A DNA stretch of 64,000 bases from Hydra vulgaris (lineage: Eukaryota; Cnidaria; Hydrozoa; Anthoathecata; Hydridae). The notes below the pieces were generated by a model. That model made no database searches. It saw nothing but the letters and a program-made list of their open reading frames with translations, and was not told where the DNA came from. The stretch spans positions 75,230,001 to 75,294,000 of the forward strand of contig NC_088931.1 of NCBI RefSeq assembly GCF_038396675.1. The letters are read 5' to 3'. This document shows positions 33,101 to 36,100 of this stretch, in pieces. A program made the translations under genes and the position numbers. The first letter of the stretch is position 1. Every line of letters begins with the position of its first letter.

Positions 33101-36100
33101 ATTTCCTTGTAATACTTTTTGAGCAAGAGGATTAAAAGTCAGCTCCTCTGCAATGTCATTATATTTATTTAGGATATCTAATGCCTGAAATTTAAAAATA
33201 TTTTTTATTGTAACAATAATCAAATTTTTTTTTTTAATTTTTTTTTGTCTAAATTTATACAATTAATAATTTAAATAAATTTAACAAAACCATATTACCA
33301 AATCATAACTTTTTGAAAAACGTATTTCACTTTCGTGATTCGCCTCTTCAAGACGATCTTTTTCATTATTTAATTTTTGTAACTCATTGCAAACTTCAGA
33401 ACTTTTGGTTTTAAGTTCAGCTTGATTGGCTGGATTTCCTTTCTATATTAATAACATTAAACCATCAAAAAACTAATTCTAATTTTGAACAAATTATTTG
33501 TGCATAATTTTGAATTCTAATTTTGAACAAAGTTATTTATGTATAAAATTAAAGCTTACTTTTTGACGGTACTTCAAAGCTATATAAATATTTTCTGTAT
33601 TAGATTAAATAAATACAAACATATAAGTATAATAATTACAAATAAACATAAAATAAAAAAATAGCTGAAATAGTTGCAATAAAAACTCGAAAAGATAACA
33701 AAATATGTCAAAAAAGGACCATTAGGTCCTTTGGATGTTTTTTTTCTTTTTGCTAAGTATTTAATGAATTGCAAGAATTAATGAAAAACGTTATGTCTAT
33801 CCACTAATCTCAGATTACTTATATTTAAGAATAAAAGTTCTAGAGTAAACAAGTCTAAAATCCCATCTCTCATTCATCAGTGTCCTCTAGAACTTTTGTA
33901 CTTTCTAAAAAATTTAACAAGTCCTTATTAATTATTGAAGCGTTTTGAATCTTGTTTTCTTGCCTGCTGAAAAATGAAAAATGTGGTTTCTATTTTTATA
34001 TACTCTGGAGATTGCTATGAACTTTTTAACTACTACCCAGTCAGATGACTTACTATTATTAATAAGGTCTTTGAATTTTTATTTAACAAACTTCTAATAT
34101 CTCACTTGGAGTCCAATAGCTTACTCTGAAAACCAATACTGATTTTAATCCAGTCATTTTACTATTGATTTGTAACTATATTATCAGAAAGGTTCTATAA
34201 TGCATTAGATTAAATCACCTATTTTTAACTGCAGTATTAAAGTTATCCTTAATGGACAATACTCACTTTTATTTCTCCTTTATATACCCTGGCTGGGGTA
34301 CAACAAGGTTCCACCCATAGTCCTGTGTTGTTTTTTGTCTACAATCTTCTTGATAATTTTACCTATTTTTTAAAGTTGATCATAATTCATCAACTTTTCA
34401 AGTGATCAAAATTCATCAACTTTTTGATCACTTAAAACAGGCAGCAAATCTATAATATGATCCTATGTTTGTGACAGCTTGGGAGACAGTGGCTGGTGAA
34501 TTTTAACCTAAAGAAGACCCAGTTGTTTACTGCTAAAAGTAACTGTTACAAAGTTAATACTCCTATATTGATGGATGGTAATGATTCTGTAATGAGTCCA
34601 AAACTTTGCATATTATTAGATCATCTTTCACAGCAGGCCTCTTATGGAAACCATACACAACATTCATTGCAAACAAAGCATCTGCTAAGATTCTTTGTTG
34701 CTGACTATTTCTGAAATCTAAATTGTCTATAAATGCATTGTAAAAATACCCTGTACTACATTTACAAAAATAGATTAATACAAGACCAAGTAAAGGTAAG
34801 AAGAAAAATAAGTTTCAAAAAACTTTATTATAAAATAAACAATGTAATCAAGACAACACTAAGAACTAAGAAACAAAAAAAAAAACTTGTGAAAAGTGAA
34901 TAAATTGGCAGATTTTGCCAATTAATTCACTTTTCACATACACAAAAATTCAGACAAAAAATTCAGCTAAATCTAGTTCCGGGTTTCGAGGAACTGCATG
35001 TCCTGCATAGGTAGAAGGTTATGGATAGGTAGTATGGTAGTATATTGGCTATGCATAGATAGTAGGTACACAATTGACTCAGATTGCTACAAATTAAATT
35101 AGAAAAAAAATCATTCACTCAGTCTGCATCTACTTTTCTAATTAAAATAGAAAAATAAATCATACACTCAGTCTGCATCTGCTTTTATAATTAAAATAGA
35201 AAAATAAATCATACACTCATTCTGCATCTGCTTTTCTAATTAAAATAGAAAAAAAAATCATACACTCAGTCTGCATCTGCTTTTCTAATTAAAATAGAAA
35301 AAAAAATCATACACTCAGTCTGCATCTGCTTTTCTAATTAAAATAGAAAAAAAAAATCACACACTCAGTCTGCATCTGCTTTTCTAATTAAAATAGAAAA
35401 AAAATCATACACTCAGTCTGCATCTGCTTTTCTAATTAAAATAGAAAAAAAAAATCACACACTCAGTCTGCATCTGCTTTTCTAATTAAAATAGAAAAAA
35501 AATCATACACTCAGCCTGCATCTGCTTTTCTAATTAAAATAGAAAAAAAAATCATACACTCAGTCTGCATCTACTTTTCTAATTAAAATAGAAAAAAAAA
35601 TCATACACTCAGCCTGCATCTGCTTTTCTAATTAAAATTGAAAAAAAAATCATACACTCAGTCTGCATCTGCTTTTCTAATTTAAATAGAAAAAAAAATC
35701 ATACACTCAGCCTGCATCTGCTCTTCTAATTGTTCAGATTGGTGTTTAAGAACAACCAACTCTTGGTCTAACTTTTCAATGGTCATCTCGTCCTCTTGGC
35801 TTGTTTAAAAAGAGAGAAAAAACTTTAATTTTATATACTAAAAACTATTATTTTCAACATTTTATTTTTGGTTTTTTATACTTTGTTTATAAATTTGTTT
35901 GTTTTCATTGTAGTATGTGCATTAAAAAAAAATCAATTTGAATATTTATCCTTATTTAAAAAAAGATTTACTTACATTCCTTCTTCAATTAACATTTTTT
36001 CACGAACCGCATCCTGTAAAACATCCTGAAAATAAAATAAACTTGTTGAATTTATAATTATCTAAGCCTTATTAGTTTAGGCTAGTTAGTCAGCCTAGTT

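Follow-up and report, generated by a model that had tools for sequence, protein, structure and literature searches.

How does a gene read past an intron that repeats, many times over, the end of its own exon together with the splice donor? In Hydra vulgaris such a tandem array adjoins an exon of the kinetochore gene NDC80, and at first sight it offers the splicing machinery a row of further donors directly behind the one that should be used. If the copies carry splice signals, then we can ask: What are these signals, what would their use do to the transcript, and how did they arise? The window is the whole stretch of 64,000 nucleotides analysed here (contig C12, positions 75230001-75294000), and the genome searched comprises 911,502,276 bases in 15 contigs.

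The NDC80 locus and the exon beside the array

The assignment of the minus-strand gene to NDC80, made in the original prediction from the sequence, is supported by homology. Residues 1-66 of the composite protein matched the N-terminal Ndc80_HEC (calponin-homology) domain of NDC80/HEC1 (Pfam PF03801, E 3.8e-20), and human HEC1/NDC80 chains matched the gene product with E values of 7.6e-18 to 1.6e-13. A further N-terminal exon match was detected at 50878-50798 (E 5.8e-05). NDC80 exons extend on the minus strand from at least 50878 down to 25132, with an incomplete count between these limits, so that the number 11 given to the exon beside the array in the original prediction is provisional. The composite protein had 10 matches in the genome, nine of them inside the locus, and none of the 10 was a processed copy showing the junctions. 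The tenth, on another chromosome (C4:24890863-24890946), consists of part of a single NDC80 exon and 16 nt of the preceding intron; by blastn it is 94.6% identical over 93 bp to window 41951-41859. The window also holds an open 363-aa mariner-type transposase frame on the minus strand (51875-52966; Transposase_1, E 6.4e-23; HTH_48 (Mos1), E 1.1e-18) and a probable M1 aminopeptidase exon on the plus strand (44-379; Peptidase_M1_N, E 1.3e-27).

We place the 3′ boundary of exon C, which adjoins the array (Table 1), by the reading frame on its left-hand side, homology, donor score and the boundary of the repeat. Its donor scores 3.2, within the leave-one-out range of the ten other NDC80 donors (0.4-7.8). 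The continuation downstream is less simple. The phase at the end of exon C is 1 and that at the start of exon D, taken from its nearest acceptor, is 0, so that an intervening sequence or another splice site is needed; direct joining of the two at this acceptor was rejected, giving a stop at the junction. The candidate micro-exon C′ restores the frame and, judged on its splice sites, scores 4th among 72 candidates compatible in frame. Its rank falls to 16th when the candidates are aligned to human NDC80, and 46.6% of 2000 random peptides aligned equally well, so this homology does not favour it. An alternative exon D acceptor 13 nt downstream (CCAG) would also bring back the frame; the alignment scores to human NDC80 were 69 with this acceptor, 63 with no added residues and 72 with micro-exon C′. 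The best-aligning candidate for an intermediate exon (34726-34662, score 84) was rejected as well; it overlaps an apparent antisense reverse-transcriptase remnant, as judged by eye from the open reading frames. The clash of phases between exons C and D, with homology that does not speak for micro-exon C′, makes the downstream exon provisional, so that the true end of exon C could differ from the one used here.

Table 1. Features of the NDC80 array and of the neighbouring exons (positions in the window)
Feature	Position	Strand	Remarks
NDC80 exon C, 95 nt	35705..35799	-	3′ end GCTGAGT/GTATGA, phase 1; frame continuous with upstream exons
Unit u0, the exon's own copy	35683..35731	-	27 nt exon (35731-35705) and 22 nt intron; presumed source of the array
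Units u1-u12, twelve tandem intronic copies, 48-50 bp	35096..35682	-	11 with GT donor, 11 with ATTAG acceptor, 10 with both
Pseudo-exons 1-5, 21 nt	35656-35676, 35607-35627, 35558-35578, 35509-35529, 35461-35481	-	ATTAG acceptor and paired donor
Pseudo-exons 6-10, 21 nt	35411-35431, 35363-35383, 35313-35333, 35264-35284, 35215-35235	-	ATTAG acceptor and paired donor
AATTTG, intron just past the array	35090..35095	-	similar to the AATTAG that opens the exon's own unit; may mark microhomology in the first duplication
Proposed micro-exon C′ (SLKYRQK), 20 nt	33560..33579	-	phase 1 to 0, donor AAA/GTAAGC; candidate
NDC80 exon D, 144 nt	33299..33442	-	phase 0 start after nearest acceptor

Units of the array and their probable exchange

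Tandem Repeats Finder (TRF) delimited the array at 35092-35731, with a period of 49, 13.1 copies, 94% matches and a score of 1129. Cut at each AATTAG, the minus strand from 35731 to 35096 yields 13 units (u0-u12) of 48-50 nt, each consisting of 27 nt that match the end of the exon, where they depart from the unit consensus at 0-2 positions, and of about 22 nt of intron including the donor. The array does therefore copy an exon end together with its splice donor, as was originally proposed. The number of units given in that proposal, thirteen of 49 bp, also stands within their slight variation in length, but they do not all carry the donor GTATGA, and the twelve decoy donors that were counted are in fact eleven: nine intronic units have GTATGA, two have GTGTGA, and u12 reads GAATGA.

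The exon's own copy can be told apart from the others, although not by the base first named for this purpose. The G at unit position 21 (GCTGAG) is common to u0, u2 and u4, while the G at unit position 9 (35723; AAGAG against AAAAG elsewhere) is found in u0 and in none of the other twelve units. When the length of the T run is set aside, the edge units u0 and u12 have three substitutions each relative to the consensus and the interior units have 0-2; at least one substitution is present in 10 of the 13 units. Units u5 and u7 are identical, as are u8 and u9, and u4 and u6 are one base apart. This is the pattern that would be left by exchange inside the array with the edge units excluded. The raw mean identity is 0.89 between the exon copy and the units and 0.90 between units, both values being underestimates, since the alignment counts changes in T-run length as substitutions. 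A genome-wide DNA search with the whole array, skipping simple repeats and common words, returned a single match, the array itself.

Pseudo-exons at the unit junctions

The original prediction noted donors only. Ten units have an acceptor as well and form whole pseudo-exons. The poly-T of the intron part of one unit runs into the AATTAG of the next exon part, and this junction resembles an acceptor. With matrices built on 11 acceptors and 10 donors of NDC80 only, a small training set, the eleven ATTAG acceptors of the intronic units score 8.0-11.0, against -4.0 to 7.3 for the real NDC80 acceptors under leave-one-out. Nine decoy donors score 3.2, equal to the donor of exon C, and the two GTGTGA donors score 1.9. 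The result is ten complete pseudo-exons of 21 nt and, in addition, one pair of 16 nt whose acceptor is AAAAG.

This pairing of acceptors with donors is not due to chance: the array has 11 donor-paired acceptors, and 200 dinucleotide shuffles gave a mean of 1.06 and a maximum of 4. At equal thresholds the density of paired acceptors is 15.5 per kb in the array and 0.71 per kb in the rest of the minus strand. However, strong-scoring sites are not rare in this AT-rich sequence, so that score alone does not imply use; on the minus strand outside the array, a score of 9.6 or more is attained by 26 of 3233 AG sites, and 740 of 3007 GT sites score at least 3.2, the value of the exon C donor. Among 15 arrays (period 20-200, at least four copies) in 284 kb, made up of the window, two flanks and 20 sample stretches with 5 kb masked, only the one in NDC80 has acceptor-donor pairs on either strand, in a thin control: of the other 14 arrays one is a run of AT and most are only 4-5 copies long. 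An NDC80 intron further upstream contains a second array (window 36714-36870; period 38 bp, 4.1 copies), which has no splice-site pairs on either strand.

What would the use of these sites do to the message? In our models, exon C extended to a decoy donor reads ECMIFFSI and then TAA for 11 of 11 donors, in agreement with the earlier expectation that decoy use would soon reach a stop. Inclusion of any 21-nt pseudo-exon creates TAA at the junction from the last T of the exon and the first AA of the pseudo-exon, with the frame kept beyond. Single acceptor-donor pairs 3-400 nt apart in the array gave a stop in all 294 modelled inclusions, and for 293 of them the stop falls inside the included segment, which makes the outcome independent of the following exon. 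Since every decoy donor and every pair leads to a stop, cis-splicing at the array would on this model add no new protein, and the array would be either neutral or a feeder of decay. Between a donor and the acceptor that follows it lie 27-29 nt. Introns of this length are shorter than spliceosomes normally use, so the units are expected to be skipped together.

The strongest competing explanation, which we nevertheless regard as unlikely, takes these stops as the purpose of the array. Some transcripts would take up a pseudo-exon or a decoy-extended exon, gain a stop and be degraded, and the length of the array would tune the level of NDC80; the segment spliced in between the exons would be AAAAGCAGATGCAG. 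In its favour are the high-scoring acceptors of the ten pseudo-exons, their donors that match or nearly match the real one, and the stops found in all 294 inclusions and all 11 extensions. The small size of the pseudo-exons and of the gaps between them argues against it, as do the comparable arrays of lancelets, which are reported to cause no interference in splicing (PMC3087553, PMC3902484).

Much less probable is the entry of trans-splicing at the array. The acceptors of the pseudo-exons would take the Hydra spliced leader, and the first ATG after it, lying in the pseudo-exon, would share the reading frame of the C-terminal half of NDC80; the leader would be joined to AAAAGCAGATG. When each of the 10 pseudo-exons was combined with the downstream exons as modelled, the first ATG in every case opened a frame of 212 codons, running without a stop to where the joined exons end, and 48.1% of non-TE Hydra Iso-Seq reads are reported to bear a spliced leader (PMC12220107). 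This frame, however, depends on the candidate micro-exon C′, and the acceptors sit within an intron, behind a normal donor. In its most specific form, which we hold to be slightly less credible still, the array would be a set of ready-made micro-exons of 21 nt, one coiled-coil heptad each, which take the spliced leader and give an N-terminally truncated NDC80 from the ATG of the repeat, in frame. If this were true, a minisatellite would have built alternative starts for a kinetochore protein.

Origin of the array and its known relatives

We consider it fairly probable that the array is a minisatellite of the kind called mirages, made of copies of the exon-intron boundary of NDC80 and most likely without useful function. 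The term belongs to a named class in lancelets, where tandem repeats lie over an exon-intron boundary and copy its splice signals; the units are described as 10-160 bp long, with exchange among them that leaves out the edge units and with splicing reportedly undisturbed (PMC3087553, PMC3902484). PGBD5 is named beside them as a similar case. By its anatomy the NDC80 array fits this class. It is a minisatellite-like repeat that spans an exon-intron boundary, as this is placed by frame and homology; its 12 intronic copies hold 11 GT donors and 11 ATTAG acceptors; and its interior appears homogenised (u5 with u7, u8 with u9) while the two edge units diverge most. In lancelet BflGb9 the mirage likewise copies the boundary at the 3′ end of an exon (PMC3087553, PMC3902484). 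The NDC80 array differs from the lancelet examples in its phylum and its twelve intronic copies, and in that the donor-side copies became complete pseudo-exons through acceptors at the junctions.

The origin of the array can be pictured as follows. A 49-bp segment straddling the 3′ end of the NDC80 exon, with 27 nt of exon, the donor and the poly-T start of the intron, would have been duplicated in tandem, the first time perhaps between the similar hexamers AATTAG in the exon and AATTTG in the intron. Unequal exchange or slippage may then have enlarged the array and partly homogenised it. With poly-T at the end of the intron part and AATTAG at the start of the exon part, every junction of units would have created a new acceptor, turning ten copies into 21-nt pseudo-exons with both sites. 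In transcripts the first donor would be chosen, since, paired with a real acceptor upstream, it defines the shortest exon. The pseudo-exons would stay unused, too small in themselves and separated by gaps too short to serve as introns, and any slip of splicing would probably end in a premature stop and decay.

From these features we infer that the decoys are neglected rather than used in NDC80 transcripts. Counting against this reading, decoys can be used, as in human IFI6 (6-16), where a minisatellite supplies multiple splice donors and two downstream units are reported to be used, giving alternative mRNAs (PMC4526556, citing Turri et al. 1995). The likeness to NDC80 lies in the repeated donors of minisatellite origin; the difference is that the decoys of IFI6 yield alternative mRNAs, whereas those of NDC80 are predicted to yield a stop. 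Other relatives concern the birth of introns. In human paralogs, variable tandem repeats lying at exon-intron boundaries are described as possible sources of new introns (PMC2812944), and in potato a duplication across a boundary gave a new intron (PMC4974935). There too, duplication of an intron-exon boundary brings ready-made splice signals; in contrast to NDC80, whose array is known from its anatomy, the new intron of potato is reported to be spliced (PMC4974935).

The opposite direction of copying, in which an intronic array came first and one of its units became the end of the exon, seems to us improbable. It would agree with the near identity of the exon copy and the units, but the tail of the exon carries on the frame of exon C. 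In addition, a weak argument, this region is already shorter than in human NDC80, with gaps of 5 and 9 residues, and loss of the tail would shorten it further. An artefact of assembly is the least probable explanation of all, for although tandem arrays are prone to misassembly, ten units differ from the consensus, and this genome, with 15 contigs and 911.5 Mb, agrees in size with a published gapless long-read AEP haplotype of 15 chromosomes and 912 Mb (PMC12220107); the copy number of the array may still be wrong.

Arrays that copy a splice boundary are already known as a kind, and the case in NDC80 is apparently a new example in a cnidarian, none having come up in searches of part of the literature, some of them directed at Hydra repeats or splicing. 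With it, the known range of boundary-copying minisatellites would reach from chordates to a cnidarian. The array also indicates that copying a donor-side boundary can generate complete pseudo-exons, because the junction of units makes the acceptor. The array amounts to a natural splice-site competition, in which one presumed real donor has eleven others behind it, nine of identical sequence and two nearly so, at a spacing of 48-50 nt. The diagnostic base at 35723, together with published Hydra long-read RNA, could make the choice among these sites answerable.
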